Shown here: piece by piece, positions 18,960-50,667 of the stretch
Layout: each line of letters opens with the position of its first letter
Position numbering within the stretch: position 1 is the stretch's first letter
Source: Cupriavidus sp. WKF15
Lineage (GTDB): Bacteria; Pseudomonadota; Gammaproteobacteria; Burkholderiales; Burkholderiaceae
NCBI RefSeq assembly: GCF_029278605.1
Contig: NZ_CP119573.1
Location: 2,604,001 to 2,668,000, forward strand
Length of the DNA: 64,000 bases
Direction of reading: 5' to 3'
Notes under the pieces: generated by a model
The model's database searches: none
The model's input: the letters and a program-made list of their open reading frames with translations, nothing else
What the model was told of the DNA's origin: nothing
Position numbers and translations under genes: made by a program

Positions 18960-19003
18960 ATTCTTCCGTGCGCGGCTACCCGGCACATCGTCCAGTGGGA
19001 CTA
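18960..19003 (-). promoter_or_regulatory. Regulon box and promoter of the hsaC-ipdAB operon
   Basis: On the minus strand the 18-bp box TAGTCCCACTGGACGATG (18986-19003) is followed by 20 bp and then AAGAAT (18960-18965). The box has GTCC-N4-GGAC dyad symmetry. Its centre would fall near -43, where class II activators overlap the -35 region. The ATG of hsaC lies about 45 bp further on. Confidence 0.7.
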
Positions 19004-19021
19004 GCCGATCCGTTGCCGGAT

Positions 19022-19738
19022 TCAGGCGGCGGCGGGGCGGACGATGTACTGGCTGGTGGGCACTACGTCGATCTTGTCGAAGTCGATGAAGCGCTCGCAG
19101 CTTGCCATCATGGCCTGCAGGTTGCGCTGGAACTTCTCTTCATCGCCAACTGCGTCGAAGAAGGCCTGCGGGTCGGTCATGGCCGCATCGGGAAAGCATT
19201 CCTCGACGATGGCGTCGTAGAGCGGCGCGGCGTAGGTGAGCGGCCGCACCACCATGTTCTGCACGTAGAGGAAGTTGTCCTGCGTCTCGACGGCCACCTC
19301 TGTGTGATCGTTGTGCCAGGTGTCCAGCCACGCCTGCGGCGTGAGCCGGGGCGGGCGCGTCAGGAAAGCCAGTTGCGCGAAACCCGGCGTGCGCTCGCCC
19401 GGCGCGGCCGGGAAGCGCGTATTGCGGATCGGCTGGGACTCCGTGACGAGATAGCTCGCCATGCGGCCGGTCGCTGCGTCGACCGCCTGGTCGAATGGCT
19501 GGCGCAGGCGATTGACGGCGCTGTCGATCCAGACCGAGACCAGCCCTTCCATCTGCGGGCGCGTATTGGTCTGGCGCAGGCCGGCCGCAGGCAGCACGGC
19601 GTCATCCGCCACGTTGACCTGCAGTCCGCGCGCGCCCAGCGCCAGCAGCTTGTCCGCGAGCGTCGTGCGCAGCCGGCGCGCGAAATCCGCCGGTTCGGTG
19701 CGCGCATCGCGCCAGACGATATAGATGACTTTTTCCAT
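19022..19738 (-). CDS. EthD-domain protein
   Basis: This 238-residue protein is built of two ferredoxin-like EthD-type halves. The second half contains FLTRPPRLTPQAWLDTWHNDH, a typical EthD/ABM motif for small-molecule dimeric enzymes or accessory proteins. No catalytic role can be assigned. It is preceded by its own copy of the regulon box (19874-19917), and its transcript could read into the hsaC operon 106 bp downstream. EthD-like proteins are known beside oxygenases and polyketide cyclases, so a role in handling an unstable ring-cleavage product is possible but unproven. Confidence 0.8.
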   Translation of the reverse strand: MEKVIYIVWRDARTEPADFARRLRTTLADKLLALGARGLQVNVADDAVLPAAGLRQTNTRPQMEGLVSVWIDSAVNRLRQPFDQAVDAATGRMASYLVTESQPIRNTRFPAAPGERTPGFAQLAFLTRPPRLTPQAWLDTWHNDHTEVAVETQDNFLYVQNMVVRPLTYAAPLYDAIVEECFPDAAMTDPQAFFDAVGDEEKFQRNLQAMMASCERFIDFDKIDVVPTSQYIVRPAAA

Positions 19739-19873
19739 GCTCCACGCTCCCTGGTACAGGTGCCGGCCGTGGCCGGACAGGTTGAAGCGTGCGCGGAACT
19801 GGAACGAGCGCGGACCGCGTGCATCGCGCCCGTCCGACGTGCCATCCAGGTGCCGCGCCCGCTGGTCCTGTGC

Positions 19874-19917
19874 ATGCTAGGCGCGTGGATGGCGACGCTC
19901 ATCCTCCAATCGGACTA
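19874..19917 (-). promoter_or_regulatory. Regulon box and promoter of the EthD gene
   Basis: The minus-strand box TAGTCCGATTGGAGGATG (19900-19917) is followed by 20 bp and TAGCAT (19874-19879), a four-of-six match to TATAAT with the four most conserved positions kept. It lies between the LuxR gene stop and the EthD start. Confidence 0.7.
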
Positions 19918-19928
19918 CGCGATGGCGC

Positions 19929-21116
19929 TCAGCCGAGCGTCACCACACTGCTCAGCAGCATGCGCACCAGCGTGGCCTGCCGCGTCACTCCCGTCTTGGA
20001 GAAGATCGAGCGCAGGTGGGCGCGTGCCGTGTTCTTGCTGGTGCCAAGTGCCTCGGCGGCTTCGTCGAGCGTCATGCCGTCGGCAAGCACCAGCGCCAGC
20101 GCGGTTTCGGCGGGGGTCAGGTCGAACAGCTTGCGCACCACCTCGTGCGAGGCGCGCGACTTGCGCTCGGGATCGCGGATAAAGACGGCGCAGGCTGGCC
20201 GACGCCGGTTTTCTTCCGACCATTCACTGAGCGGAATGGTGCGGATCAGCACGCCGAGCTTGCTGCGGCCAGACGGGCGGGTGATCGACATGGCTTCGGC
20301 CAGCGCAGGCTCGCTGCCGTGGTGCCCCAGCTGCGCACGGCGCAGCAGGTACTGGAACTTGCGGCTCTCCTGGGCATAGGCGATCTCGAAGGTGTTCCCG
20401 TTGAGGCGGATGCCGTCGTTATCCGCCAGGATCTCGTCAGCCTCCGCATTCTTCTTGAGGATCGCACCGGCGGCGTCGAGGATCACCATGCCCACCAGCA
20501 TGCGGTCGATCGCGCCCGCGTAGAGCGAGCGCTCGGATTCGACCACATCGAGCCGCGAATGCAGCCGGATCGCGCGTTTCAGGTGCGGCAGGATGGCGCC
20601 GCAGGTCGCCTTGTCCACTTCGGAGAAGTCCTGCGCGTCGTCCTGGCGGCAGATGCGCAGGCGGCACTCGACACCATCCTCGGTACGGATGTCCGCGCCC
20701 AGCAGGTAGCGGATGCCGAGCGGCTGCAGGAACTGTCGGTAGATCTCGCTGTGGCACCAGTTGCCGGCGCCCAGCGCTTCGTCGACCGTCACCGCGCGGT
20801 CGGTTGGCAGGTTGATGAAGGGATCGATGGCGTAGTAGTAGCTGTTGTAGGAAGCCTCCGCCTCCAGCGAAGTCCCGTGCGCCGAAGCATGCACCGCCAG
20901 GCCGCTGCGGTCGCTGGCGGGCGAGCGCAGGATAAAGCTCACATAGCTGGCGTCGAGTTGCTTGCGCAGCATCTCGAGCGCGTGGCCCCAGGGCACGGGT
21001 TCCATCGGCCCTTCATAGACCGCGGCCAGCAGCGCGCCGAACCGCGTGACGCTCAAGCCCGACTGCGCAAGCAAAGGCGCCGCCATTTCCCGCGCCTCAA
21101 CGGTCGCCATCAACAT
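19929..21116 (-). CDS. TeiR-like LuxR-type transcriptional regulator 1
   Basis: This 395-residue protein ends in a LuxR/GerE helix-turn-helix (about residues 325-395: FDLTPAETALALVLADGMTL, then TSKNTARAHLRSIFSKTGV). The N-terminal region contains a conserved sensor block (YYYAIDPFI, GIRYLLGADIRTEDGVECRL) and a PAS-like middle (ILDAAGAILKKNAEADEIL). Length and layout match TeiR, the testosterone regulator of Comamonas testosteroni. The ATG at 21116 has GGAG 7 bp upstream and gives exactly the same length as the paralogue at 37193. It is a likely activator of the steroid genes. Its own promoter lacks the regulon box and has a separate operator-like repeat. Confidence 0.88.
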   Translation of the reverse strand: MLMATVEAREMAAPLLAQSGLSVTRFGALLAAVYEGPMEPVPWGHALEMLRKQLDASYVSFILRSPASDRSGLAVHASAHGTSLEAEASYNSYYYAIDPFINLPTDRAVTVDEALGAGNWCHSEIYRQFLQPLGIRYLLGADIRTEDGVECRLRICRQDDAQDFSEVDKATCGAILPHLKRAIRLHSRLDVVESERSLYAGAIDRMLVGMVILDAAGAILKKNAEADEILADNDGIRLNGNTFEIAYAQESRKFQYLLRRAQLGHHGSEPALAEAMSITRPSGRSKLGVLIRTIPLSEWSEENRRRPACAVFIRDPERKSRASHEVVRKLFDLTPAETALALVLADGMTLDEAAEALGTSKNTARAHLRSIFSKTGVTRQATLVRMLLSSVVTLG

Positions 21117-21202: not shown

Positions 21203-21232
21203 GCCAATATGCGGCCCTCGGTGTTTTCCCTG

Positions 21233-21276
21233 ACCTGCAATCGGACGATGCCCGCAGCGCGTGCCGTCGATTCAAT
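21233..21276 (+). promoter_or_regulatory. Regulon box and promoter of the 21317 SDR operon
   Basis: ACCTGCAATCGGACGATG (21233-21250) keeps the right half (GGACGATG) of the box but has a poor left half. It is followed by 20 bp and TTCAAT (21271-21276), then 40 bp to the SDR ATG. The exact spacing supports it despite the weak left half. Confidence 0.55.
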
Positions 21277-21316: not shown

Positions 21317-22147
21317 ATGGATTTCACCGACAAGACCGTGCTGGTCACCGGCGGCGGCGCCGGCATCGGGCTCGCCACCGCGCAAGCCTTTCTGGATCAG
21401 GGGGCGCGCGTGGCGATGCTCGAGATCGACGCGCAGCGCGCCGACCATGCCCACACGCTGCTGGGCAAGGCCGGCGCCGACGTGCTGGTGGTACAGGGAG
21501 ATGCGGCAAATGCCGGCACCGTGCGCGAACTGGCCACGCAGATCGAGCAGCGCTTCGGGCGGCTCGACGTACTGGTCAACAACGTCGGCGACTTCCTGCG
21601 CATCGCCAAGCCGTTCGAGGACTACGCCGACGACGAGATCGCCAGCCTCTACGCCGCCAACCTCGGCCACGTCTTCACGGTCACGCGCGCCATGCTGCCG
21701 CTGCTGCGGCGCAGCGCCGGCGGCAGCATCGTCAGCGTGTCGTCGATCGAGGCCTTCCGCGGCATTCCGTACTGCAGCGTCTACGCCGCCTTCAAGGCCG
21801 CCATCACCGGCTTCACGCAGAGCCTGGCGCTGGAACTGGCGCCGGCGGGCATCCGCGTCAACCTGATCGCCCCCGAGACCACCGAAACCCCGCAGGTCCC
21901 TGTGTCGCAGATGGTCGCCGAGGAGCACCGGCACCATATCCCGCGCTGGATCCCGCTGGGCCGCTTCGGCACGCCGCAGGATATTGCCGACGGCATCCTG
22001 TTCCTGGCCAGCCCGCGCGCGGCCTGGATCACCGGCACGGCCCTGCACGTCAACGGCGGCGCCCTGGCCGCCGCCGGCTGGTACCGCGAGCCCAACGGGG
22101 CGTGGACCAACATGCCGGTCATCAACGGCAACGGCATGAACCTCTGA
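21317..22147 (+). CDS. SDR-family oxidoreductase
   Basis: This 276-residue classical SDR has TGGGAGIG for cofactor binding, NNVG in place of NNAG, a serine pair in VSVSSIEAF, and YAAFK as the catalytic Tyr-Lys. The ATG has GGAGA 10 bp upstream. It opens a rightward two-gene operon with a NAD-dependent epimerase-like gene and lies divergent from the LuxR regulator 1 gene. It probably oxidises or reduces a hydroxyl/keto group of a steroid or a ring-derived intermediate; the position is unknown. Confidence 0.87.
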   Translation: MDFTDKTVLVTGGGAGIGLATAQAFLDQGARVAMLEIDAQRADHAHTLLGKAGADVLVVQGDAANAGTVRELATQIEQRFGRLDVLVNNVGDFLRIAKPFEDYADDEIASLYAANLGHVFTVTRAMLPLLRRSAGGSIVSVSSIEAFRGIPYCSVYAAFKAAITGFTQSLALELAPAGIRVNLIAPETTETPQVPVSQMVAEEHRHHIPRWIPLGRFGTPQDIADGILFLASPRAAWITGTALHVNGGALAAAGWYREPNGAWTNMPVINGNGMNL

Positions 22148-22190
22148 CGGCCGCGTCACGCGGCCACACCACCCAAGCAAGGAGACAGGC

Positions 22191-23090
22191 ATGAAGATAC
22201 TCATCGTCGGCGGCAATGGCATGATCGGGGGCCACGCGGCCCTGCACCTGCGCAGCCGCGGGCACGAAGTCACCATCGCCGGGCGCAACCGCCCCGCGTC
22301 CGGCACGCCGCTGGGCGGGCTGGACTTCCTGCGCTGCGACTACATCGCCAACGACCTGCCCGCGGCGCAGCTCGGCGCCTTCGATGCGCTGGTATTCGCC
22401 GCCGGCAACGACGTGCGCCACGTGCCGCCCGGCGGCGACGAAGCGGCACACTGGGAGCGCGCCAACGTCGAAGGCGTGCCGCGCTTTTTCCGTGCCGCGC
22501 GCGATGCCGGCATCCGGGTCGCCGTGCATGTCGGCAGCTTCTATCCGCAGGCGGCACCGAGGCTGGCCGAAGACAACGCCTATATCCGCTCGCGCAAGCT
22601 GGCCGACGAAGGCGTGCGGGCACTGGCGACGGAGACCTTCCGGGTCAGCAGCGTCAATGCCCCGTTCGTGGTGGGCACGGTGCCGGGCCTGACGGTCCCG
22701 ATGTTCAAGGCCTATACCGACTACGCCCGGGGCGGCTTTGCGCCGATGCCGGACTTCGCGCCGCCGGGCGGCGTCAATTTCATCTCGGCCATGTCGCTGT
22801 CGGAAGCGATCGAAGGTGCGCTGTTGCGCGGCGAGAATGGCAAGGCCTACCTCGTGGGCGACGAGAACCTGACCTTCCAGGACTACTTCGGCGCGTTCTT
22901 CCGCGATGCCGGCCGCGCGGTTCCGCCGGTCATCGACCAGGAGCATCCGTTGCTGCCCGACTCGGCGATCTGCTTCGGCCGCGGCAACACGCTCTACTAC
23001 GAGCCGGATGCGGCCGAGACCGCCCTGCTCGGCTATCGCCGCCGGGACATCCTGCGCACGGTCAGCGAGATCGTGGCGCAGTACCAGTAA
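22191..23090 (+). CDS. NAD(P)-dependent epimerase/dehydratase-like (extended SDR)
   Basis: This 299-residue extended SDR has an N-terminal GGNGMIGGHAALHL nucleotide motif. The usual YxxxK is replaced by a YIRSRK arrangement (DNAYIRSRKLADEG), which still places Tyr and Lys four residues apart. The C-terminal half resembles substrate-binding domains of the 3beta-HSD/epimerase family. AAGGAGA lies 7 bp before the ATG. It follows the SDR at 21317 by 43 bp and ends in a strong hairpin at 23100. The likely role is reduction or isomerisation of a steroid-derived ketone; this is inference from context. Confidence 0.82.
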   Translation: MKILIVGGNGMIGGHAALHLRSRGHEVTIAGRNRPASGTPLGGLDFLRCDYIANDLPAAQLGAFDALVFAAGNDVRHVPPGGDEAAHWERANVEGVPRFFRAARDAGIRVAVHVGSFYPQAAPRLAEDNAYIRSRKLADEGVRALATETFRVSSVNAPFVVGTVPGLTVPMFKAYTDYARGGFAPMPDFAPPGGVNFISAMSLSEAIEGALLRGENGKAYLVGDENLTFQDYFGAFFRDAGRAVPPVIDQEHPLLPDSAICFGRGNTLYYEPDAAETALLGYRRRDILRTVSEIVAQYQ

Positions 23091-25194: not shown

Positions 25195-25262
25195 GGCCGG
25201 TCTCACTCCTTGGTTGTGACCGGCCGGTGCAAGGTCCACGGCCGGTCGTTGGGATGGCGACT

Positions 25263-25306
25263 ATCGTCAGCCCTGCCGCGCAGCGGGCCATCGTCCGCGT
25301 GGAGTA
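25263..25306 (-). promoter_or_regulatory. Regulon box and promoter of the NTF2-SDR-HSD operon
   Basis: The minus-strand box TACTCCACGCGGACGATG (25289-25306) is followed by 20 bp and GACGAT (25263-25268). The -10 match is moderate. The box lies 19 bp from the oppositely oriented box at 25325, so both divergent promoters share this short region. Confidence 0.6.
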
Positions 25307-25324: not shown

Positions 25325-25368
25325 TAGTCCGAACGAAGGATGTACCGTGGCCTCGCCCGCCCCAAGCT
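25325..25368 (+). promoter_or_regulatory. Regulon box upstream of the 25426 SDR
   Basis: TAGTCCGAACGAAGGATG (25325-25342) is close to the consensus. After 20 bp the hexamer is CAAGCT, a poor -10, so the box is well supported but the core promoter is uncertain. Confidence 0.55.
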
Positions 25369-25425: not shown

Positions 25426-26292
25426 ATGAAGCAGGCGGAACAGGCCATCGTCGCGGTCGTCACGGGCGGCTCGCGCGGGGCCGGCAAGGGCATCGCCCTG
25501 GCGCTCGGCGCGGCTGGCGCCACGGTGTATGTGACCGGGCGCACGGAGCAGGAAGGCAGCGCGCCGCTGCCCGGCACCATCCACGCCACGGCGCGCGAGA
25601 TCGACGCGCTGGGCGGGCGCGGCATCGCGGTCGCATGCGACCATCGGGACGATGCGCAGGTGGCGCGGCTGTTTGCGCGCGTGCGCGAGGAGATGGGGCG
25701 AATCGATATCCTGGTCAACAACGCCACCTTCCTCCATGACGAGCTCATCATGCCGGGGCCGTTCTGGGAGAAGCCGCTGGAGATGGCGGGGATTCTCGAT
25801 GTAGGCCTGCGATCCGGCTACGTGGCCAGCTGGCATGCGGCGCCGATGATGGCGGCGCGCGGGCGGGGGTTGATTGTTTTCACGTCTTCCTTCGGTGCCA
25901 ATTGCTATATGCATGGGCCGGCCTATGGGGCACAGAAGGCGGGGATCGACAAGTTCGCACACGACATGGCGGTTGACCTGCGTCCGCATGGGGTCGCGGC
26001 GGTATCGGTCTGGATGGGGCCGCTGCGCACCGCACGCACGCTGCGTGTGTGGGAACAGCATCCGGACAAGTACGCGTCGTTCGCGCCGGTAGCGGAAACG
26101 CCGGAGTTCACGGGGAAGGTTATCGATGCGCTGTATCGCGATCCTTCGCTGATGGAAAAATCGGGCCAGGTGTTGATCGCGGCGGAAGCGGCTCAGGGGT
26201 ATGGGATTGTCGATGCTGATGGCGTACAACCGCCGTCTTACCGGCAGGCACTGGGCGGGCCGCCGGGGGTGCATCCGGCGATTGTGGAGTAG
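25426..26292 (+). CDS. DHRS1-like SDR oxidoreductase
   Basis: This 288-residue SDR begins VVTGGSRGAGKGIALALGAA and contains TVYVTGRTE, NNATF in place of NNAG, FTSSFGANCY and YGAQK. The segment ARGRGLIVFTSS and the C-terminal VSVWMGPLRTARTL recall the DHRS1 group, which reduces steroids and other carbonyls. An AGGAGA SD precedes the ATG. It is a single gene, divergent from the NTF2-fold gene, with its own box. Composite repeat copy 1 begins within about 30 bp of its stop. Substrate unknown. Confidence 0.85.
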   Translation: MKQAEQAIVAVVTGGSRGAGKGIALALGAAGATVYVTGRTEQEGSAPLPGTIHATAREIDALGGRGIAVACDHRDDAQVARLFARVREEMGRIDILVNNATFLHDELIMPGPFWEKPLEMAGILDVGLRSGYVASWHAAPMMAARGRGLIVFTSSFGANCYMHGPAYGAQKAGIDKFAHDMAVDLRPHGVAAVSVWMGPLRTARTLRVWEQHPDKYASFAPVAETPEFTGKVIDALYRDPSLMEKSGQVLIAAEAAQGYGIVDADGVQPPSYRQALGGPPGVHPAIVE

Positions 26293-38779: not shown

Positions 38780-39589
38780 ATGGCGGCAAACCCGCGGCTG
38801 CAGGCCGCAGTAATCACCGGAGCGGGCGGCGGCATCGGCCGCGCGCTGGCACAGGCCCTGGCCGCGCAGGGATATGCGCTGGCGCTGGCGGATATCGACG
38901 CCGAAGCGCTCGAAGCGACGCGCGCGGCGCTTGCTGCCCAGGGGGCGACCGTGATCGCCATTCCTACCGATGTGTCCGACGCGCGGCAGATCGAGCACTT
39001 GTGCGCCGAGAGCTTCCTGCGCCTGGGCCATATCGACCTGCTCATCAACAACGCCGGCGTGCTCGCCACCGGCCGTTGCTGGGAACTGGCGCCGGAGGTG
39101 TTCGAGCGCGTGCTGCGCGTCAACCTGTGGAGCGTGCTGCACGCGCTGCGCTGCTTCGTGCCGCGCATGGCGGCGCAAGGCTCGGGTCATATCGTCAATA
39201 TCGCGTCAATGGCCGGCCTGGCCGTCGGACCATGGCTGGCGCCCTACACGCTGTCCAAGCAGGGCGTGGTCGCACTGAGCGAAGGGCTGGCGCTGGAACT
39301 GCAGGCGGCCGGTATGCCGGTCAAGGTGTCCGTGGTCTGCCCCGGCCCGGTGGCCACCAGCATCGCGGCGGACCTGAACGGCGCCGGGCCGGAGGAAGTG
39401 AACCAGATGAACGGTGCGCTGCGCGGCGGCATCGCCGCCGGCCTGCCCCCTGACGAGGCCGCGCGCGTGATCCTGGATGGCGTGGCGGCCGGACAGTTCT
39501 GGATCCTGCCGCACGAGCAGGCCGTGCACGCGGCGATGGCGCGCGCGCAAGGCATTGCCGCCGGCACACCGCCGGCATTCTCGCTCTGA
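38780..39589 (+). CDS. SDR-family oxidoreductase
   Basis: This 269-residue classical SDR has TGAGGGIG, NNAG, IASMAGLA with the serine, and YTLSK as the catalytic Tyr-Lys. GGAG lies 10 bp before the ATG at 38780. The C-terminal segment SIAADLNGAGPEEVNQMNG and LPPDEAARVILDG is typical of SDRs acting on hydrophobic alcohols. It leads a three-gene rightward operon with an esterase and the RibBA-like gene and has a regulon box. A steroid alcohol or ketone substrate is inferred. Confidence 0.87.
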   Translation: MAANPRLQAAVITGAGGGIGRALAQALAAQGYALALADIDAEALEATRAALAAQGATVIAIPTDVSDARQIEHLCAESFLRLGHIDLLINNAGVLATGRCWELAPEVFERVLRVNLWSVLHALRCFVPRMAAQGSGHIVNIASMAGLAVGPWLAPYTLSKQGVVALSEGLALELQAAGMPVKVSVVCPGPVATSIAADLNGAGPEEVNQMNGALRGGIAAGLPPDEAARVILDGVAAGQFWILPHEQAVHAAMARAQGIAAGTPPAFSL

Positions 39590-39622
39590 AGCAGACTTCC
39601 CCAATACATAGCAGGAGACAAG

Positions 39623-41709: not shown

Positions 41710-42676
41710 TCAGGCCAGGCCCGCCAAAACAATCGGCAAAGCTGCGGGTGAAACGGTCCACATCGCTGTCGGCAAGGTGGTTGATGCCACCGGCCAGGCG
41801 CCGGCCGCCGCCGGTCTCGAAGCCGCGGCAAAAGTCCACCGCGCTGGTAGCGCTGTGCGCCGGCACCCGCACGCTGACGGCAAAGCCGCCGCCGGACTTC
41901 GGCGACAGCAGGCCAATCACATCGCCGGGGCGCCCGCGCACCAGCTCATTGGCCAGCACACCGATCGCGCGCCGCGCCCATGGCGCGTCGGGCAGCACCA
42001 GCAGCGCGGCACCGGGCACCTCATGCGCGGGCGACAGCCGCCGCGCGTGCGCCATGTCTTCCTCGTAGCCGTCGCACAGGGCCGCATAGGCGCCGCATTG
42101 CGCCGTGAATGCCAGGGGGTCCTCGAAGGGCAGCATGTGGAGCGCCAGTTCGGCGGGATCGAAATGCAGATCCGCCAGGCACTCGCCATAGGCGTTGTAG
42201 TTCAGGCAAGTGCCCAGGCGCTCCAGCATGGCGATCTGGCCAGCATCGAGCCCTGACTGCGCCGCCAGCGCCCGGGCCACGGCAGCCAGGTTGTCGCCGA
42301 ACGCGGCGGTGATTGCCCAGCGCCGGTGGCGCCCGCCGAGGTGGCGGTCGACCAGGATGCTGGTGCAGACCTCGGGTCCCTCGTCGATATGGGTGCGCAG
42401 GCAGCCATGGGCCGGCACTTCGCCGGCATGGTGGTGGTCGAAGTACTCCACGCTGGCACCGGCCGCGAGCAAGCGCAGCAGGCCGTCGCGGTTCTGGTCG
42501 AGCGAGATGTCGAGCGCGGTCACCGAATCGCCCGGCACGGCGTCGATGCGGTCGAGCAGCCGGATATCGCGCTTGACGCCGGTGACCAGGGTCACGTCGC
42601 CAGGGTTAGCCAGGCGCAGCTGCTGCTGCGCGCACAGGCCATCGGCGTCGCCGTTGAAGGCAATGTAGCGGGTCAT
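41684..42676 (-). CDS. DHH-family phosphoesterase
   Basis: This 330-residue protein has the DHH superfamily metal motifs: FNGDADGLCA near residues 8-17, ALDISLD (about 54-60), the DHHH motif at 80-83, and a glycine-rich C-terminal segment, SGGGFAVSVRVP with GGGRRLAGG. Such enzymes are exopolyphosphatases, cyclic-dinucleotide phosphodiesterases or nanoRNases. It lacks a RecJ-size extension. Its 3' end overlaps the convergent RibBA-like gene by 26 bp. It follows an SDR gene (42701) by 24 bp, in the same direction. Relation to steroid metabolism is not evident. Confidence 0.85.
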   Translation of the reverse strand: MTRYIAFNGDADGLCAQQQLRLANPGDVTLVTGVKRDIRLLDRIDAVPGDSVTALDISLDQNRDGLLRLLAAGASVEYFDHHHAGEVPAHGCLRTHIDEGPEVCTSILVDRHLGGRHRRWAITAAFGDNLAAVARALAAQSGLDAGQIAMLERLGTCLNYNAYGECLADLHFDPAELALHMLPFEDPLAFTAQCGAYAALCDGYEEDMAHARRLSPAHEVPGAALLVLPDAPWARRAIGVLANELVRGRPGDVIGLLSPKSGGGFAVSVRVPAHSATSAVDFCRGFETGGGRRLAGGINHLADSDVDRFTRSFADCFGGPGLIRPAGQTR

Positions 42677-42700
42677 GGCAATGGCTCAGGGGTCGTGGGG

Positions 42701-43492
42701 TCAGGGCATAAAATCGCCGCCGTTGGCATCCAGGGAGGCGCCGGTGATCGCCCGGGCATAGTCCGACACCAGGAACAGCGCCGCGCGCGCGCAGTCATCG
42801 TCCGTCGGCATGTGGCCCAGTGCGATCTGCGAAGCCACGGGTGCGATGATAGCGTCCTCGCTGACGCCTTGCTCGGCTGCGGCATGGCGCACGTAGCCCT
42901 GCACTGGCGCGCCCCACATCCAGCCCATGAACACGCTGTTGGCGCGGATGCCGTGCGGACCGAGTTCGCGCGCCAGGTACTTGACCGCCACCGCCAGCGC
43001 GCCCTTGGACGCCGCGTAGCCCGATTCGCCGGGCATCGGCTTGCGCGTGGCCTGGGTGTTGATCATCACGATGGCGCCGCCGCCCTGCGGTTTCATCAGC
43101 GCCGCCACCTCCTGCGTCAGCGTCATGGTGCCGAACACGTTGGTGTCGAACACCTGGCGCCAGACATCCAGGTCTGCGGCCTCCACCGGCTCGGGGAAAT
43201 TGCCGTGCTGGAAGGCGCTGTTGACCAGCGCGTCGATCCGGCCGAAGCGGCGCATGGTCTCGGTGGCCAGGTGGCGGGACTGGGTGCGGTCGGTGATATC
43301 GGTCACGACCTTGAGCACTTCGCAGTCGGCACCCAGGGCGTCGATACGGGTCTGGGCTTCGTCCAGTTTCGCCGCGGTGCGCGCGGCGATGGCCACGGCG
43401 CGGGCGCCTTCGCGTGCGGCTTCCACGGCGAGCTTGATGCCCAGTCCCGGGCCGATGCCGGACACGATGACGATTTTGTCTTTTAGTAGCAT
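42701..43492 (-). CDS. Atypical SDR-family protein
   Basis: This 263-residue SDR keeps the Tyr-Lys pair (YAASK) but deviates elsewhere. The nucleotide turn is SGIGPGLG, NNAG is replaced by NSAF, and at the usual catalytic serine position (13 residues before the Tyr) there is a threonine within VMINTQATRK. Such SDRs are known in mycobacteria and may act on acyl-CoA or other thioesters. AAGGAGA lies 8 bp before the ATG. It leads a short leftward operon with the DHH gene. No regulon box was seen upstream; a fragment of the intergenic repeat lies at about 43551-43622. Confidence 0.82.
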   Translation of the reverse strand: MLLKDKIVIVSGIGPGLGIKLAVEAAREGARAVAIAARTAAKLDEAQTRIDALGADCEVLKVVTDITDRTQSRHLATETMRRFGRIDALVNSAFQHGNFPEPVEAADLDVWRQVFDTNVFGTMTLTQEVAALMKPQGGGAIVMINTQATRKPMPGESGYAASKGALAVAVKYLARELGPHGIRANSVFMGWMWGAPVQGYVRHAAAEQGVSEDAIIAPVASQIALGHMPTDDDCARAALFLVSDYARAITGASLDANGGDFMP

Positions 43493-43550
43493 GGTGTTGT
43501 CTCCTTCAGAGTTTTTTTGGATCTTTTGGGTTCTTCGCGGGATTGTGGTG

Positions 43551-43622
43551 ATGACGGGGTTGTCGTTCTTGGCTAGCGCTGCTGTTTCGCAGGCTTGGCC
43601 GGCGGGGTTTCGTGGTGGTGAC
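43551..43622. repeat. Fragment of the composite repeat end module
   Basis: The stretch with GTCGTTCTTGGCTAGCGCTG, CTGTTTCGCAGGCTTGGCCG and GTGGTGGTGACTGG matches the partial tandem module at 36385-36449 and the outer end of copy 3. The hairpin and inner blocks are missing. It fills most of the space between the SDR start and the sulfotransferase stop. Confidence 0.65.
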
Positions 43623-43656
43623 TGGCAACCCCCAATCCACCAAAACCCCAATCCCC

Positions 43657-44826
43657 TCAATTGCGATTCAAAATATGCCTTCCCCGGTAGCCAGCGAAGT
43701 CGCGCTCAAGCTGCACCTGGCTCAGGCCGAACTGTTCCGGCGTATAGGCATGCGCCGCCCGCTGGTTGCGCGGATTGCCTTCCATCCATGCCCACATTCC
43801 CGCGCGCGCGGCTTCGGTCAGCGGCATGCCTGCAAAGCGGTAGACCGCGCGGGCCACGCCGAAAGGATCGCACACCGTGTCCTCGAAACGCACGTCAAGA
43901 AAACGGTCGGCCGGCAGCCCGTCGCGCACGGCCATGGCGTGCTCGGTGCCGCGCCGCAACTGCTCGCTCCACTGCTGCCCAACGGTGACGGCATCGGGAG
44001 CATCGGCGTACATCTTCCACAGCGTATGCGCCATGCTGGCCATCGACGGTATCGTCTGCGTAGGATCGCGGTGGGTCAGGACGACCTGCGCGCCCGGGAA
44101 CACCTTGAACAGGATCTCAAGCGTATGCAGGTGCTGCGGCGTCTTCAGTACCCACCGCTGCGCCGGTGCCTCGCCACGCTGCCGCTTCTGCCATTGCAGG
44201 AACTGCAGCATGGTCTTCAGGTAGGCATAGACTTCGGTGCGGTCCTGGCGCTGCAGCCACGCAGTGTAGGCCGGCACGTTGGCGTAGGAATCCATCGCGC
44301 ACAGGAAGGAATGCTCCATCAGCATGAATTCCTCGTCGGCCGCCATGGCGTCCAGCGGGTGGATGGCGAGGATGTCCGGGATGAAGCGGATCATCTGCGC
44401 GACTTCCTCGCGCGCCAGCGCAATGCGCTGGCCGGGGTCGCCCACGTCCTCGCCGGGCAGCGGCGCCGGGTAGCGGGTTTCCCACCACGCCGCGGAACAG
44501 AAGCGCGCGTCCGTGGCCAGCATGCGCTGCAGCAGCGTGGTGCCGGTGCGCGGCAGGCCGACGATGACCAGCGGGTCTTCCACGCGTTCCTGCAGGATCT
44601 CCGGATGGCGCTTGCAGTAGTCCTGAATCACCAGCCGGTTCACCAGTTGCGCCTGCAGCTTGCCTTCCAGCAGTTGCACGCCCTGCGGCGACAGCCTGGC
44701 CTCGCGCGCCAGCGAGCCGGACAGCACCTCCAGTGCCTCGCGGTAGTTGCCCGGGCCGAAGTCGGTCAGTCCACCGGCCTGCTGGCTGGCCTGCGCGAGC
44801 AGGCGCTCCACATTGATTGCATTCAT
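43657..44826 (-). CDS. PAPS-dependent sulfotransferase (Sulfotransfer_3 type)
   Basis: This 389-residue cytosolic sulfotransferase has the 5'-phosphosulfate loop GLPRTGTTLLQR at residues 90-101. A 3'-phosphate binding region follows (VVLTHRDPTQTIPS), and the C-terminal FAGYRGRH follows the FGLSQVQLERDFAGYR helix. It transfers sulfate from PAPS to an alcohol or phenol. GGGAG lies before the ATG, which overlaps the DUF1214 stop by four bases (ATGA). PAPS supply genes (cysD, cysNC) lie divergently 330 bp beyond the DUF1214 gene, and both units carry the steroid regulon box. A steroid-like acceptor is therefore likely but not shown. Confidence 0.88.
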   Translation of the reverse strand: MNAINVERLLAQASQQAGGLTDFGPGNYREALEVLSGSLAREARLSPQGVQLLEGKLQAQLVNRLVIQDYCKRHPEILQERVEDPLVIVGLPRTGTTLLQRMLATDARFCSAAWWETRYPAPLPGEDVGDPGQRIALAREEVAQMIRFIPDILAIHPLDAMAADEEFMLMEHSFLCAMDSYANVPAYTAWLQRQDRTEVYAYLKTMLQFLQWQKRQRGEAPAQRWVLKTPQHLHTLEILFKVFPGAQVVLTHRDPTQTIPSMASMAHTLWKMYADAPDAVTVGQQWSEQLRRGTEHAMAVRDGLPADRFLDVRFEDTVCDPFGVARAVYRFAGMPLTEAARAGMWAWMEGNPRNQRAAHAYTPEQFGLSQVQLERDFAGYRGRHILNRN

Positions 44827-45944
44827 GCCTTGTTCTCCCTGAGGTTCTCCCTGAGCGATACAAGCTTGACCACACGCGTGCGCGGATGCACCGGCTGCGC
44901 CGCCCCGACCCAGCGCCAGCACATGGTGCCGTTGCCATGGCCGGCAGTCTCCAGCCAGTTGGGCAGGCCCGGGTCGCGCGCGCCGAGGATGACGGTGACG
45001 CCGCCGTTGGCATCGAGGCGGGCGCTGTGCTTGTTGATGCAGATATCGTGGTAGCGGTAGTCGAGCGATTCCATCCAGTAGTTATTGACCTGGAAATTCC
45101 AGAACTCGCACGCCGGCACCTGCTCGACCTCGATCACCAGCGCCTCGTCGTCCGCCAGCTGCCAGCTGGAGTGGTAATAGAAGATGTTGGGATCGCCGCC
45201 GGCCGCCTGGCACACCGCCTGGTCCGCCGGCAGCAGGGCATTGACATGGCCGCCGTAGCCCTGCGCCCAGTCGGCGAACACGCGCGCGGTGCCCTCGACA
45301 AAGCCCGCGGCGCGCAGCAGGCCGGCGTGCAGGCGCTCCGCGCTGATTGCGGGCGGCTTGCCGCTGCCGTCGAGACGCTCGATATGCAGCTCGGCCGGCG
45401 TCTCCGCCTTGCGGTCCAGGAAGGTCTGCCGCACCACCAGCGCATTGGTGGCCGGCTCCATCCGCACCCAGTTGCCGTCGTGCGGGCGCGCGCTGAGGAT
45501 GAGCTCGAAGCTGCCGTCCGCGTCCACCGCCAGCTTGTTGCTGTCGATAAAGCCGGTCTGGATCATGCGCCCGTCGGTTTCGTAGCCGCCTTTCTGCGTG
45601 CCGAAGCTCAGGTAGGCCACCGTGCCGCGGCGGCCGCGCACGCGGTACTCCGCATTGCCGTCCAGCCGCGCGTAGCGATAGAGATTGTCCGGATTGTCCG
45701 CGCCGATCTTGGCGGTTTCGTGCGACGGCGAGAAAAAGCCGGGAAACGCCGGATCGGCGAATTCCACATGCATCTCCAGCGCAATGCGCAGCAAGCGGCT
45801 CAGGTAGCGGAAGCCCTCGGCGCGCGTGAGCGCGTCGGATGGCGCCTCCGGGCGCAGGATCTGCTGTCCGCTGCGCCTGAGCACTTCGCAAAACTCGGCC
45901 CAGGTCTGGCCGCTCAGCAACTGGTCTTCGGCGGAGGTCGCCAT
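44823..45944 (-). CDS. DUF1214-domain protein
   Basis: This 373-residue protein has no signal peptide. Its C-terminal half has the DUF1214 pattern WNFQVNNYWMESLDYRYHD and ICINKHSARLDANGGVTVIL followed by DPGLPNWLET. The N-terminal half has helical AEGFRYLSRLLRIALEMH and an RLDGNAEYRVRGRRG beta region. GGGAG precedes the ATG. It is co-translated with the sulfotransferase. The biochemical role of DUF1214 proteins is not settled. A carrier, binding or tailoring function for a hydrophobic acceptor of the sulfotransferase is a plausible inference. Confidence 0.85.
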   Translation of the reverse strand: MATSAEDQLLSGQTWAEFCEVLRRSGQQILRPEAPSDALTRAEGFRYLSRLLRIALEMHVEFADPAFPGFFSPSHETAKIGADNPDNLYRYARLDGNAEYRVRGRRGTVAYLSFGTQKGGYETDGRMIQTGFIDSNKLAVDADGSFELILSARPHDGNWVRMEPATNALVVRQTFLDRKAETPAELHIERLDGSGKPPAISAERLHAGLLRAAGFVEGTARVFADWAQGYGGHVNALLPADQAVCQAAGGDPNIFYYHSSWQLADDEALVIEVEQVPACEFWNFQVNNYWMESLDYRYHDICINKHSARLDANGGVTVILGARDPGLPNWLETAGHGNGTMCWRWVGAAQPVHPRTRVVKLVSLRENLRENKA

Positions 45945-45975
45945 CTGCCTGCTCCCGTGGTTCGTCGGCGAAGCA

Positions 45976-46020
45976 ACGATACCCAGTGCAGGGCAGGCTC
46001 AGCCTCGTCCGGGCGGACTA
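45976..46020 (-). promoter_or_regulatory. Regulon box and promoter of the DUF1214-sulfotransferase operon
   Basis: The minus-strand box TAGTCCGCCCGGACGAGG (46003-46020) is followed by 21 bp and TATCGT (45976-45981). It is one arm of a larger inverted repeat with the plus-strand box at 46050. Confidence 0.65.
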
Positions 46021-46065
46021 GGAAATGCGCGCCCCGTCCCGCCATTTCTTAGTCCGCCCGGACGA
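46005..46065. repeat. 23-bp inverted repeat between the sulfotransferase and cysD operons
   Basis: The arms 46005-46027 and 46043-46065 are inverted copies with one mismatch over 23 bp, separated by 15 bp. Each arm contains the core of a regulon box (GTCC-N4-GGAC). The extension beyond the box, as far as GGAAATG/CATTTCT, suggests recent duplication and inversion of an operator. Confidence 0.8.
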
Positions 46066-46094
46066 AGTGGCGCAGGGCCCCGGCTCGCTACCTT
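46050..46094 (+). promoter_or_regulatory. Regulon box and promoter of the cysD-cysNC operon
   Basis: TAGTCCGCCCGGACGAAG (46050-46067) is followed by 21 bp and TACCTT (46089-46094). The ATG of cysD is 63 bp further on. Confidence 0.62.
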
Positions 46095-46157
46095 TTGCCC
46101 ATGCCAGGCCACCGCAAGATCCCTGCACGGGGCCGGCGCAACCAAGAGGAGATCCCG

Positions 46158-47054
46158 ATGTTGACCCACCTGGAGCAACTGGAGGCGGAGAGCATCCACA
46201 TCATGCGGGAGGTGGTGGCGGAATGCGAAAACCCCGTCATGCTCTATTCCATCGGCAAGGACAGCGCCGTGATGCTGCACCTTGCGATGAAGGCCTTCCA
46301 TCCCGCGCAGCCGCCGTTTCCGCTGCTGCACGTCGATACCACGTGGAAGTTCCGCGAGATGATCGCGTTCCGCGACCAGACGGTCGAGCGCCTGGGCCTG
46401 GACCTGCGCGTGCATATCAACCCCGAAGGGCTGGAGCGCAACATCAGCCCCCACGAGCACGGCTCGGCCGTCCATACCGACGTGTGGAAGACGCAGGGCC
46501 TGAAGCAGGCGCTGGACCACTATGGCTTCGATGCCGCCTTCGGCGGCGCACGCCGCGACGAGGAGAAGTCGCGCGCCAAGGAGCGGGTGTTCTCGGTACG
46601 CACCGCGCAGCACCGCTGGGACCCTAAGATGCAGCGCCCCGAACTCTGGCACCAGTACAACACCCGCAAGCGCAAGGGCGAAAGCCTGCGCGTGTTCCCG
46701 CTGTCGAACTGGACCGAGCTGGACATCTGGCAATACATCTATCTCAACGACATCCCGATCGTGCCGCTCTACTACGCCAAGGAGCGGCCCGTGGTCGAGC
46801 GCGACGGCACGCTGATCATGGTCGACGACGAGCGCCTGCCGCTGCTTGCGGGAGAAACGCCGCAGATGCGCAAGGTCCGTTTCCGCACGCTGGGCTGCTA
46901 CCCGCTCACGGGCGCGATCGAAAGCGAGGCCGACACGCTCGGCGGCATCATCCAGGAAATGCTGCTGGCGACCACGTCGGAGCGCCAGGGACGGCTGATC
47001 GACAGTGACTCGGCCGGTTCGATGGAAAAGAAGAAGCAGGAGGGATATTTCTGA
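46158..47054 (+). CDS. cysD: Sulfate adenylyltransferase subunit 2
   Basis: This 298-residue PP-loop ATPase has the pyrophosphatase motif [10 protein letters not shown] at residues 31-40, [15 protein letters not shown], and [14 protein letters not shown] near the C terminus, all characteristic of CysD. With the CysN part of the next gene it makes APS from ATP and sulfate. GAGGAGA precedes the ATG. It overlaps the cysNC start by one base (TGATG). The gene is not accompanied by assimilatory reductase genes (cysH, cysI), which points to PAPS production for sulfonation rather than cysteine synthesis. Confidence 0.95.
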
Positions 47055-48976
47055 TGGAAACCCTGATCGACAATGCGCCCGCGATGGCGCAACCGGACGG
47101 CGCACAGGGCGATATTGCCCACTACCTGCGCGCCCAGCAAAGCAAGAGCCTGCTGCGCTTCATCACCTGCGGCAGCGTCGACGACGGCAAGAGCACGCTG
47201 ATCGGCCGGCTGCTGTATGAATCGAAGATGCTGTTCGAGGACCAGCTGGCCCAGCTCGAAGCCGACTCGAAGAAGATGGGCACGCAGGGCGAGAATCTGG
47301 ACTTCGCGCTGCTGGTGGATGGCCTGGCCGCCGAGCGCGAACAGGGCATTACCATCGACGTGGCCTACCGCTTCTTTGCCACCGACAAGCGCAAGTTCAT
47401 CGTCGCCGATACGCCCGGGCATGAGCAATACACGCGCAATATGGTCACTGGCGCCTCAACCGCCGACCTGGCCATCCTGCTGGTGGACGCGCGCCGCGGC
47501 GTGCAGACGCAGACGCGCCGCCACAGCTATCTGGTGTCGACGCTGGGCATCCGGCGCGTGGTGCTGGCGGTGAACAAGCTCGACATGGTGGACTACTCGC
47601 GCGACGTCCACACGCGTATCGAAAAGGAGTATCGCGAGTTCGCGCAGCAGATCGGCCTGACCGATATCGTCTGCATCCCGATGTCGGCGCTGCGCGGCGA
47701 CAACATCACCGCGCCCAGCGCGAATACGCCGTGGTACCAGGGCCCGACGCTGATGGACCATCTGGAAAGCGTGCCGATCGACCATGTGCCCGCGCAGGAC
47801 GAGTCGTTCCGGCTGCCGGTGCAATGGGTCAACCGCCCCAACCTGGACTTCCGCGGCTTTGCCGGCACGGTCAGCGCGGGCGAGATCCGCCGTGGCGATC
47901 GCGTGCGCGCGCTGCCTTCCGGCCGCGAAAGCCGCGTCACCGCGATCGTCCGCGCCGACGGGGAATGCGAGTACGCCATGCGCGGCCAGGCCGTGACGCT
48001 GACGCTGGCCGACGAGATCGACGTCAGCCGCGGCGACGTGCTGGCGTGCGCGGAAGACCCGCCCGCGGTGGCCGACCAGTTCGAGGCCACGCTGGTGTGG
48101 ATGAACGAGGACGCCATGCTGCCCGGGCGCCCCTACCTGCTCAAGCTCGGCACGCGCACCGTGGGCGTGACCGTGGCGCAGCCCAAGTACAAGGTCAACG
48201 TCAACACGCTCGAACACCTGGCCGCGCGCACGCTGGAGCTGAACGAGATCGGCGTGTGCAACCTGCACGTGGACCAGCCGGTGGCGTTCGATCCCTACGC
48301 GCGCAGCCGCGAGCTGGGGGGCTTCATCCTCATCGACCGCCTCACCAACAACACGGTCGGTGCCGGCATGCTCCACTTTGCGCTGCGCCGGGCGCAGAAC
48401 GTGCACTGGCAGGCGATCGACGTGGACCGCCGCGCCCACGCCGCGCTCAAGCACCAGTCGCCGCGCATCGTCTGGTTCACCGGGCTGTCCGGCGCGGGCA
48501 AGTCAACCATCGCCAACCTGGTGGAGAAGCGCCTGCACGCACTCGGCCACCACACCTATCTGCTCGACGGCGACAATGTGCGCCACGGCCTGAACAAGGA
48601 CCTGGGCTTCTCCGAGGCGGACCGCGTCGAGAACATCCGGCGCGTGGCGGAAGTGGCAAGGCTGATGCTCGATGCGGGACTGATCGTGCTGGTGTCGTTT
48701 ATCTCGCCATTCCGTTCCGAACGCGAGATGGCACGCACGCTAGCCGGCGACGGCGAGTTCGTCGAAGTCTTCATCGATACGCCGCTGGCGGTGGCCGAGC
48801 AACGCGATCCCAAGGGCCTGTATCGCAAGGCGCGCCGCGGCGAGCTGAAGAACTTCACCGGCATCGATTCGCCTTACGAGCCGCCTGAGCGGCCGGAACT
48901 GCGCATCGATACTACGGCCGATACCGCGGAGCAGGCGGCGCAGCGGATCGTGGCATGGCTGCGGGACAGCCCTTAA
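47054..48976 (+). CDS. cysNC: Sulfate adenylyltransferase subunit 1 / APS kinase fusion
   Basis: This 640-residue bifunctional protein has an N-terminal CysN GTPase with GSVDDGKST (40-48), [12 protein letters not shown] and the NKLDMVDY guanine motif, then beta-barrel domains. A C-terminal APS kinase follows, with P-loop GLSGAGKST (about 477-485), [10 protein letters not shown] and [10 protein letters not shown]. Together with CysD it converts sulfate to APS and then PAPS, the sulfotransferase donor. Such fusions are usual where PAPS is needed for sulfonation. A 9-bp hairpin follows the stop at 48996-49019. Confidence 0.95.
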
Positions 48977-48995
48977 GCGATTCAAAGAACGGAAA

Positions 48996-49019
48996 CAGCG
49001 GTGCCAAGCCGCACCGCTG
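48996..49019. terminator. Hairpin between convergent cysNC and hsp20 genes
   Basis: CAGCGGTGC, loop CAAGCC, GCACCGCTG is a perfect 9-bp stem between the stops at 48976 and 49036. It lacks a clear U-tract in either direction. Confidence 0.55.
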
Positions 49020-49035
49020 CTCCGCATTGGGCCCG

Positions 49036-49448
49036 TCAGCCAGCTGACACTTCGATTCGCCGAGGCTTGGCCTCTTCGCGGCGCGGGACGGTCACCTTCA
49101 GCACACCGTCCTGCAGGTTTGCCTCGATGCCAGCAGCATCCAGGTCAGCACTGAGCGTAAAGGTACGTGCATAGCGCGGCTGGCGCACCTCGGCATGTTG
49201 CACGCGCAGACCTGCCGGGGTAGGCACTACAGCTTCGCCCTCGATGCGCAGCTGACTGTCATGTACGTGCACTTCCAGCTTTTCCCGCGGCACACCTGGC
49301 AAGTCTGCCCACAGCACGACGCCGCTGGCGGTTTCGTAGAGATGTCGACCGCCGGGACCAGCGTCGTTGCCTGTGCGGTGTCGCGGCGCTGCGCAACCGC
49401 GCCCTGTCCCTGTTGCGTGTTCTGCGTGACTTGGGTGGAATCATTCAT
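49036..49448 (-). pseudogene. Small heat shock protein gene (hsp20) with a frameshift
   Basis: The coding sequence starts at the ATG at 49448 (AAGGAG 6 bp upstream) and reads MNDSTQVTQNTQQGQGAV to VPAVDIS. It then goes out of frame at a GAGA/TCTC doubling (49339-49342). The correct downstream frame reads YETASGVVLWADLPGVPREK and continues to a proper alpha-crystallin end, VLKVTVPRREEAKPRRIEV. Removing two bases would restore VDIYETASG. The cause is either a real 2-bp duplication or a sequencing error. The intact second Hsp20 gene lies 24 bp upstream, in the same direction. Confidence 0.8.
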
Positions 49449-49472
49449 GGCTCGCTCCTTGACATCGATCAT

Positions 49473-49913
49473 TTAGCTGACAGTAATGGCCCGCGGACGC
49501 GAGGTCTCGCGCTTGCCGACGCTGATCGACAGGCAGCCGTTGGCGTAGCGCGCCTGCACCTTGTCGGGATCGGCCGACTGCGGCAACTCGATCACACGGC
49601 GGAAACTGCCTGAGAAGCGCTCCTGCGCGTAGGCGCGCGCTTCGGCATCGCCCTCCGGCCGCGCCGCGGTGCGCTCGCCGCTGATCGTGAGCAGCCCCTT
49701 GTCGATCGACACGTCAATCTGGTCGGCGCGCATGCCTGGGGCGAATACGACCACCTCGATGGTGTCGTCGGTCGTGCCGATATTGACCGGGGGAAATGCC
49801 CCGAAACGCCCGGATCGCAAGCTCGATGGGAACCCGCCGAACAGGCTCGCCATCTGCCGTTGCATCCGGTCGAACTCACTGAACAAGTCAGTGCCGAAAT
49901 AATATTCACTCAT
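49473..49913 (-). CDS. Small heat shock protein, Hsp20/alpha-crystallin family
   Basis: This 146-residue chaperone has an N-terminal DLFSEFDRMQRQMASLF, PPVNIGTTDDTIEVVVFAPGM, and a C-terminal ANGCLSISVGKRE with the usual beta-strand pattern. AAGGAGG precedes the ATG at 49913. It forms a two-gene unit with the frameshifted hsp20, the common tandem arrangement in Burkholderiales. It binds unfolded proteins under heat or solvent stress. No heat-shock promoter could be placed with confidence upstream. Confidence 0.92.
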   Translation of the reverse strand: MSEYYFGTDLFSEFDRMQRQMASLFGGFPSSLRSGRFGAFPPVNIGTTDDTIEVVVFAPGMRADQIDVSIDKGLLTISGERTAARPEGDAEARAYAQERFSGSFRRVIELPQSADPDKVQARYANGCLSISVGKRETSRPRAITVS

Positions 49914-50058
49914 GGTTAGGTCCTCCTTCCAGTTAGCACGGATGGCGCCGGCCATTGCCACATGGTTGCCTGCCACCCGCTGGCACACCCGGTGGTTCAT
50001 GCCGCTCGCACGGCTGCGGCGGCTTCGCAATGCTTATCTAGTGCCCTGTGGCGAGATT

Positions 50059-50442
50059 TCAAGACGTCAAGAACGCAGGCGACTGAAGTACACGTTCAAG
50101 TACTTTCCGGGAGCTGCGGAGTCTTGCGTTGCTGCCTGTGCGGCAAAGCCGGCTGTGAATGTGTATTAACAACTGCCGCGAAGGCGCCAATCCGCCCAGG
50201 GCTTCTCGCCCGACGACGATCGTGCCGTCAGCCTTGCCTTGTGGCTTTATATGGCCATTTAACTCTACGACCAAAGCGCGATGCCGCCGTTGGGCAGCGA
50301 CTGTCTCTCGAAGAGCGGTCAGAAGCTGGCGCGCAAAGGTTGTGTCATGGCCATCCGCACCCAGCTCTCTCACGAGCGCAATTTGACGGCGAACGCGCGC
50401 GCGGCCGTCCGCTATGTATCGATCGCAAGTTGCAAGATCCAT
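50059..50442 (-). CDS. Small hypothetical helical protein
   Basis: The start at 50442 has GGAG 6 bp upstream. The first ~70 residues, MDLATCDRYIADGRARVRRQ followed by ALVRELGADGHDTTFARQLL, resemble a widespread small helical protein of Burkholderiales of unknown function. The C-terminal tail is less typical and could reflect a frameshift or recent extension. I do not assign a function. It is divergent from LuxR regulator 3. Confidence 0.55.
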   Translation of the reverse strand: MDLATCDRYIADGRARVRRQIALVRELGADGHDTTFARQLLTALRETVAAQRRHRALVVELNGHIKPQGKADGTIVVGREALGGLAPSRQLLIHIHSRLCRTGSNARLRSSRKVLERVLQSPAFLTS

Positions 50443-50624
50443 CCGGCTCTCCGGATAACATCCTCCTTTGAGGATACATCCGCCTGACCAGACACGGGCC
50501 GTCACAATGGTTCCTTTCAGGACGGCCGTGACAAAGAGAGTCAGCAGGCTACGTCGTCTTCGCAAGCATCATAGTTTCCAGCAACTATTCCCGATAGCAT
50601 CCATCGTGGCTGCGGGAGAAACCC

Positions 50625-50667
50625 TAGGCCGAACGGACGATGAGGCGGTGGCCTCGGTCGGTACGAT
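50625..50667 (+). promoter_or_regulatory. Regulon box and promoter of LuxR regulator 3
   Basis: TAGGCCGAACGGACGATG (50625-50642) is followed by 19 bp and TACGAT (50662-50667). Transcription would start near 50675, which argues for translation starting at the ATG at 50722 rather than at 50680. Confidence 0.62.

Follow-up and report, generated by a model that had tools for sequence, protein, structure and literature searches.

A putative operator of TeiR-like LuxR-type regulators at a fixed distance from the −10 element in steroid-degradation promoters of Cupriavidus sp. WKF15

In a 64,000-nucleotide stretch of the genome of Cupriavidus sp. WKF15 (contig NZ_CP119573.1, positions 2,604,001 to 2,668,000; hereafter the window), an 18-bp box recurs in front of genes for steroid degradation, mostly exactly 20 bp before a −10-like hexamer. 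Judging from sequence comparison, this box very probably serves as operator for LuxR-type regulators of the TeiR family, which would activate the steroid genes from a class II position. The computations establish the box and where it sits, and show that it is enriched at steroid genes and distributed together with TeiR-like genes, also in the genus of TeiR itself; from these results we infer direct binding, a ligand, activation, the transcript starts and the pairing of five paralogous regulators with their promoters.

In published work, TeiR/TesR is described as a positive regulator of steroid genes in Comamonas testosteroni, and the requirement of TeiR for testosterone degradation has been known since 2004. 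A review mentions, as unpublished data, that Pseudomonas stutzeri Chol1 degraded cholate with a delay after one of its two TeiR-like genes had been deleted, and a review from 2021 states that the mechanisms of regulation are largely unknown. Cupriavidus necator H16 corresponds to strain ATCC 17699. That strain number appears in a published table alongside growth on testosterone. Neither the box nor a TeiR operator was found described in the literature searched, most subscription papers, including the original TeiR paper, being outside that search. The kind of regulator is therefore known, and the operator, its exact geometry and its regulon are new as far as could be seen. The box supplies a putative operator with its promoter geometry, a predicted set of target genes and a conserved family of regulators, and this makes the control of bacterial steroid breakdown directly testable. 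It also marks accessory genes as probable parts of steroid metabolism, among them a sulfotransferase that has its own supply of 3'-phosphoadenosine-5'-phosphosulfate (PAPS), and it offers parts for steroid biosensors.

Boxes in the window

A sequence-only reading of the window had listed eleven boxes. All eleven were found at the coordinates given, each fully intergenic by our own gene calls and facing, in its own orientation, a gene start 58 to 161 bp ahead. Intergenic sequence makes up 11,811 of the 64,000 bases, and uniform placement would put all the boxes there with a probability of about 1e-8. A twelfth box, likewise fully intergenic, was added at 38605. The boxes are as follows (SDR, short-chain dehydrogenase/reductase).

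18986 to 19003, minus strand: TAGTCCCACTGGACGATG, before the hsaC operon; −10-like AAGAAT at 18960 to 18965, 20 bp away; upstream of 13 of 13 hsaC orthologs.
19900 to 19917, minus strand: TAGTCCGATTGGAGGATG, before the EthD-domain gene at 19022 to 19738; −10-like TAGCAT at 19874 to 19879, 20 bp; kept in two of the three orthologs found.
21233 to 21250, plus strand: ACCTGCAATCGGACGATG, a weak box before the SDR operon at 21317 to 23090; −10-like TTCAAT at 21271 to 21276, 20 bp; identical sequence in two of the four orthologs found.
25289 to 25306, minus strand: TACTCCACGCGGACGATG, before the NTF2-like/SDR operon at 25194 to 23136; −10 options GACGAT at 25263 to 25268 (20 bp) or GATAGT at 25260 to 25265 (23 bp); three of three orthologs.
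25325 to 25342, plus strand: TAGTCCGAACGAAGGATG, before the SDR gene at 25426 to 26292; CAAGCT at 25363 to 25368 (20 bp) or AAGCTT one base further.
34541 to 34558, minus strand: TAGTCCCATCAGACGATG, the exact consensus, before the hsaA operon; −10-like AAACAT at 34515 to 34520, 20 bp; 11 of 13 orthologs.
35931 to 35948, minus strand: TAATCCAATCAGACGATG, before the luciferase-like monooxygenase gene at 34660 to 35811; −10-like CACACT at 35905 to 35910, 20 bp; 10 of 10 orthologs.
38605 to 38622, plus strand: TACTCCAAACAGACTAAG, near-symmetric, absent from the earlier list, in the gap between the second LuxR gene (LuxR2) and the SDR gene at 38780; same sequence in four of five same-genus genomes.
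38684 to 38701, plus strand: CTACCCAAACAGACGATG, a weak box before the SDR-esterase-RibBA-like operon at 38780 to 41709; −10-like TAAAAG at 38722 to 38727, 20 bp.
46003 to 46020, minus strand: TAGTCCGCCCGGACGAGG, before the DUF1214-sulfotransferase operon at 45944 to 41684; −10-like TATCGT at 45976 to 45981, 21 bp; three of five orthologs.
46050 to 46067, plus strand: TAGTCCGCCCGGACGAAG, before cysD-cysNC at 46158 to 48976; −10-like TACCTT at 46089 to 46094, 21 bp; five of five orthologs, and loci L261 and L262.
50625 to 50642, plus strand: TAGGCCGAACGGACGATG, before the third LuxR gene (LuxR3); −10-like TACGAT at 50662 to 50667, 19 bp.

The box had been described as an 18-bp dyad. This holds for the core, GTCC-N4-GGAC, which is symmetric, but the full 18-mer is no perfect dyad: the promoter-proximal arm is extended to GGACGATG, and the outer arm is mostly TA, sometimes TC, against GATG in the inner arm.

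With a matrix made from the eleven sites, these and the box at 38605 are the 12 top-scoring positions of the window, the weakest at 17.7 and the next position at 13.6, a ranking that is partly circular. When each site was left out of its own matrix, nine of the 11 kept a rank between 2nd and 12th, and the boxes at 21233 and 38684 fell to 18th and 24th. The sites at 21233, 25325 and 35931 had been named as the weakest; this is right for 21233, which together with 38684 scores lowest, but 35931 is the strongest of all and 25325 scores well.

Promoter geometry

The distance between box and −10 element was examined with 98 boxes of at least 16.5 bits (80 from other genomes and 18 from this genome), which remained of 160 after removal of near-identical neighbours and still retain some relatedness. 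These boxes were found by their own matrix alone, and spacing had no part in the choice. Of the 80 boxes from other genomes, 56 are followed by an A at base 22 combined with a T at base 26, compared with 0 to 8 at the other 44 offsets examined. In this genome the pair is found at these bases in nine of 18 boxes, and in 0 to 3 at other offsets. The A...T pair reads as a −10 hexamer separated from the box by exactly 20 bp. Among the 11 claimed boxes of the window, six have their best −10 at a distance of 20 bp, three at 21 bp and one at 19 bp; the remaining box, 25289, has it at 23 bp, with GACGAT also present at 20 bp. The spacing is thus tighter than the 19 to 22 bp first proposed, with a mode of exactly 20 bp and with 10 of 11 window sites at 19 to 21.

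If the hexamer is taken to occupy −12 to −7, the box covers −50 to −33. Its centre would then lie at about −41.5, the class II position, which corrects the value of about −43 given by the sequence-only reading. No −35-like hexamer was seen in the box promoters, because the ATG at the end of the box occupies that place, which reads ATGNNN.

A dimer sitting over −50 to −33 might instead block RNA polymerase until steroid is present, the proximal arm covering the −35 region, and C. testosteroni is reported to have a LuxR-type repressor that acts on a hydroxysteroid dehydrogenase gene. We regard a repressor site as very unlikely, however: ATGNNN in the place of a −35 hexamer is in keeping with promoters that depend on an activator, class II activation predicts just such a fixed 20-bp phasing, and induction is reported to require TeiR/TesR.

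Genome-wide distribution

Allowing up to three mismatches, the plain consensus matches 105 places in the genome and its reversed control 188. The bare consensus is thus not enriched; it is the strength, clustering and promoter geometry of the sites that make the box significant. All six genome matches with at most one mismatch fall in two regions of one contig. Because of the lack of enrichment, position weights and a model of box plus −10 element were used. This 46-bp model was built from 57 sites of other genera, namely the 65 of 80 with a positive −10 score at 20 bp minus eight from the same genus, and it therefore favours the 20-bp spacing. Its training sites had been chosen with the matrix of the window itself, so that finding the window sites again is not a wholly independent test; more can be learned from the genome-wide ranking and from the matches outside the window.

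In the genome-wide scan, in which 150 of 4052 first-look candidates were scored, the top 11 matches, and 14 of the top 15, fall in two steroid regions of the 7.38-Mb genome. These 15 include 10 of the 11 claimed sites and four sites outside the window in the steroid regions. The box at 46003 was missed both here and in a scan of the window alone, which recovered the other ten.

The first of the outside matches lies 56 bp before kshA (KshA_C domain), just over 600 bases to the left of the window edge. The other three are in the second steroid region. One lies upstream of an alpha/beta hydrolase operon, 173 bp from its called start; this operon is tentatively read as hsaD-like. Another lies 307 bp before the called start of a FAD-binding PRK07121-type gene; that start is probably called too short, and an upstream scan found no box within 260 bp of it. 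The last, at 146098, is at the end of a TetR-type gene and has no clear target. A weaker box, of 12.1 bits, precedes a second kshA. The putative operator thus reaches pathway genes beyond the sites that defined it (four of 15 outside the window, one of 15 elsewhere), as expected of a single steroid regulon.

The one match among the 15 outside the steroid regions (C1:1105868-1105904, ranked 12th) is unexplained. The second steroid region (C2:130001-150000, locus L032) holds, besides the second kshA, the FAD-binding dehydrogenase and the alpha/beta hydrolase, a FadD3-like ligase, two more TeiR-like LuxR genes, the TetR gene and near-symmetric boxes such as TAATCCGAACGGACTA.

Conservation upstream of orthologous genes

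For footprinting, tblastn matches covering at least 60% of the query with at least 45% identity and at least 120 bases upstream were kept, and each score was taken from a matrix that leaves out the tested site. Within the genus, 32 of 43 box promoters reached 18 bits or more, as opposed to none of the 158 sequences upstream of other genes. Outside the genus, the corresponding counts were 22 of 43 and 15 of 177. Two of these 15 exceptions (G141b) are artefacts, the gene extending beyond the region; the remaining 13 have a box 43 to 154 bp before a gene that presumably heads an operon in its genome. The box precedes eight of eight kshA orthologs. At 25325 it scores 12.0 to 20.1 in five of five same-genus orthologs and is absent in seven of seven from other genera. 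The ortholog of LuxR3 in L263 shows an identical layout with TACGAT at 19 bp; the conservation of the box at 50625 was scored mostly against paralogs.

These comparisons bear on how many of the boxes are functional. The regulon would be smaller if only the strong boxes worked and those at 21233, 38684, 25325 and 38605 were chance or relic matches, and we consider this somewhat unlikely. It would fit the low leave-one-out ranks of 21233 and 38684, the lack of a −10 at 20 bp on the SDR side of 38605 (window check; this box may possibly serve autoregulation of LuxR2) and the restriction of 25325 to the genus. It fits poorly with the other-genus model, which places 21233, 38684 and 25325 among its 15 best matches genome-wide, helped by a −10 at 20 to 21 bp.

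Co-occurrence with TeiR-like regulators

TeiR-like proteins were accepted at E≤1e-60, from at most seven (family) or four (order) candidates per genome. Of 249 genomes of the family, 38 encode such a protein. At least three boxes (at most one mismatch) were found in 32 of these 38 genomes and in none of the other 211; with at least two boxes, the counts were 35 of 38 and 4 of 211, the genomes being related and not independent. Among 399 genomes of the order, three of the four with a TeiR-like protein have at least three boxes, as against 0 of 395 others.

At 19 named non-Cupriavidus LuxR loci, 38 matches at 13 bits were counted compared with 6.6 for permuted matrices, with six loci lacking matches, mostly weak matches in Nevskiales and palindromic sites counted on both strands. 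In genus g89, hsaA (E≤1e-120) is present in 18 of 53 genomes, and all 18 carry TAGTCTGATCGGACGATG before hsaA with GAGCAT 20 bp on, although three of them have a higher-scoring hexamer at 23 bp. The LuxR protein of one of the 18 (G339) is 96% identical to TeiR of Comamonas testosteroni (Q6URL0), and on this identity, taken from G339 alone, g89 is taken as Comamonas, the genus of TeiR. In a genome from a different class (probably Alphaproteobacteria), the top match to the model ends about 106 bp before hsaA and is followed by CATGAT 20 bp past the box. The regulator of G101 is 100% identical to a Pandoraea vervacti protein. The occurrence of TeiR-like genes in other genera and outside the family disagrees with a published claim that tesR-like genes are confined to C. 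testosteroni.

The earlier proposal of a steroid regulon under class II activation by a LuxR-type protein gains support from the additional targets (kshA), the fixed 20-bp distance and the co-occurrence with TeiR-like genes.

Besides the behaviour of the bare consensus and the origin of the training sites, several observations weigh against a TeiR-type reader of the box. In genus g11 the reversed control equals the real pattern, with 52 matches each in 16 TeiR-bearing genomes; the 14 genomes of this genus without TeiR hold one real match in total. Four genomes carry a TeiR-like gene with one box (G214, G150 and G156) or none (G487) at up to one mismatch; looser matrices do find boxes in G150, G156 and G487. 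In addition, TeiR is described in print as a membrane kinase with a polar membrane location. G916 combines hsaA with a TeiR-like protein (37%) that carries the same helix segment, yet no match to the model lies near its hsaA. The recognition segment therefore does not discriminate.

TeiR-like genes and hsaA are also nearly inseparable: 37 of 37 family genomes with an HsaA of at least 45% identity have both, as do five of five tested outside the family, none of which has hsaA without a TeiR-like gene. The box could therefore follow the pathway instead of the regulator, and might be the operator of another steroid-linked regulator, with the TeiR-like genes as mere neighbours. A candidate is the TetR-type gene (TetR_N) at C2:146113 in the second cluster, which has the box 146098 at its end. 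This explanation is very unlikely in our view. No match to the TetR-like gene turned up at E≤1e-15 in the other genome regions compared, so that this gene is unlikely to encode the common reader of the box. A TeiR-like gene is present in all 32 family genomes with at least three boxes, including G192, which has no hsaA match at E≤1e-60. In G141 and G011, a box pair adjoins a TeiR-like gene and cysDNC on a contig different from that of hsaA.

The operator of G916 may differ. G020, with no TeiR-like match at E≤1e-60, has a palindromic box, TCGTCCGATCGGACGATG (L240:9924-9943; G020:C7:454924).

Regulators and target genes

The principal genes of the window are the following (HTH, helix-turn-helix).

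19929 to 21110, minus strand: TeiR-like LuxR regulator 1 (LuxR1), 393 residues, GerE HTH; 41% identical to C. testosteroni TeiR.
37193 to 38395, minus strand: TeiR-like LuxR regulator 2, 400 residues; predicted LasR-like domain, PAS-like region and GerE HTH; 39% identical to TeiR.
50722 to 51855, plus strand: TeiR-like LuxR regulator 3, 377 residues, GerE HTH, beside cysDNC; 34% identical to TeiR.
18019 to 18915, minus strand: HsaC-like extradiol dioxygenase, first gene behind the box at 18986; NF045631, 299 bits, under the equivalog cut-off of 450.
33283 to 34476, minus strand: HsaA-like monooxygenase oxygenase subunit, first gene behind the box at 34541; NF045629, 377 bits, under the equivalog cut-off of 450.
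43657 to 44826, minus strand: sulfotransferase (Sulfotransfer_3), in the operon behind the box at 46003.
46158 to 48976, plus strand: cysD and cysNC (sulfate activation to PAPS), behind the box at 46050.

In a Pfam search, GerE was the sole family above cut-off in all three LuxR proteins of the window (about 390 residues, C-terminal HTH), and no receiver domain was found. The five Cupriavidus paralogs (three in the window and two in the second cluster) are 33.7 to 40.8% identical to TeiR (Q6URL0) over most of the length, with E values of 1e-71 to 1e-97, and their recognition segment, NT(A/V)RAHLR, matches NTARAHLR of TeiR. They sit among steroid genes, with HsaA-, HsaC- and FadD3-like neighbours and with kshA beside the window. 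Searches with hidden Markov models also matched a FadD3-family ligase in the hsaA operon and a DUF1214 protein in the window. The further genes ipdAB (hsaC operon), kstD, hsaB and kshB (hsaA operon) are presumed assignments by name. The window lies on a 2.73-Mb contig, and LuxR1 has its closest named relative in C. yeoncheonensis (98%).

A mechanism can be proposed from these comparisons. A TeiR-like dimer would bind the dyad core centred at about −41.5, with the proximal arm reaching into the −35 region, and would recruit RNA polymerase to a weak −10, mostly exactly 20 bp downstream. A steroid or steroid metabolite, perhaps sensed through the N-terminal LasR-like domain, would turn the regulator on. 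The targets would comprise ring-degradation operons (kshA, hsaA, hsaC and others), several accessory operons, the sulfotransferase/PAPS module and at least one of the regulators.

TeiR/TesR of C. testosteroni is the closest known system, given the identity of 34 to 41%, the steroid-gene setting and the box before hsaA in the genus of the 96% identical TeiR. It differs in that Cupriavidus has five paralogs, and in that TeiR has been called a membrane kinase, whereas the regulator is modelled here as a LasR-like domain, a PAS-like region and an HTH. A protein-kinase fold is not among the fold-search matches listed for the regulator, an absence that does not exclude kinase activity. LuxR and the lux box, with class II activation near −42, are a further comparison; here there is an additional PAS-like region, and the putative operator is GTCC-N4-GGAC with an asymmetric GATG arm. 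KstR/KstR2 of actinobacteria and EdcR of Caenibius are similar in their pathway-specific control of steroid catabolism. Compared by regulator type, these are TetR-type repressors, in contrast to the LuxR-type putative activator described here.

Sulfotransferase and PAPS module

From the divergent boxes at 46003 and 46050, DUF1214, sulfotransferase and SDR genes lead away in one direction and cysD-cysNC, then LuxR3, in the other. The paired box of 46003 is also present in L261 and L262, and the module with TAGTCCACCCGGACGAAG boxes is found in G141 and G011 (genus g11), where hsaA lies on another contig.

41684 to 51855, with L261:3318-11760 and L262:1563-10032: divergent module, box pair ending GAAG/GAGG.

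A steroid-linked sulfonation function is a guess. On a broader and more speculative view, which is possible though short of likely, a steroid-responsive family of TeiR-like LuxR activators would span at least two, and probably three, of the former alpha-, beta- and gammaproteobacteria with one promoter format, TAGTCC-N4-GGACGATG-N20-NANNNT; the five Cupriavidus paralogs would read sub-variants of the box, and LuxR3, with the GAAG/GAGG boxes, would control the sulfotransferase and PAPS-supply module. If this were so, steroid-degrading bacteria might sulfonate steroids, or a signal, in response to steroids.

The SDR-esterase operon behind the box at 38684 includes a RibBA-like protein (40597 to 41709) with DHBP synthase and GTP cyclohydrolase II domains. 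The cysD of the sulfotransferase module is a paralog: a second copy, 46 to 48% identical, is present in eight of the eight genomes tested.

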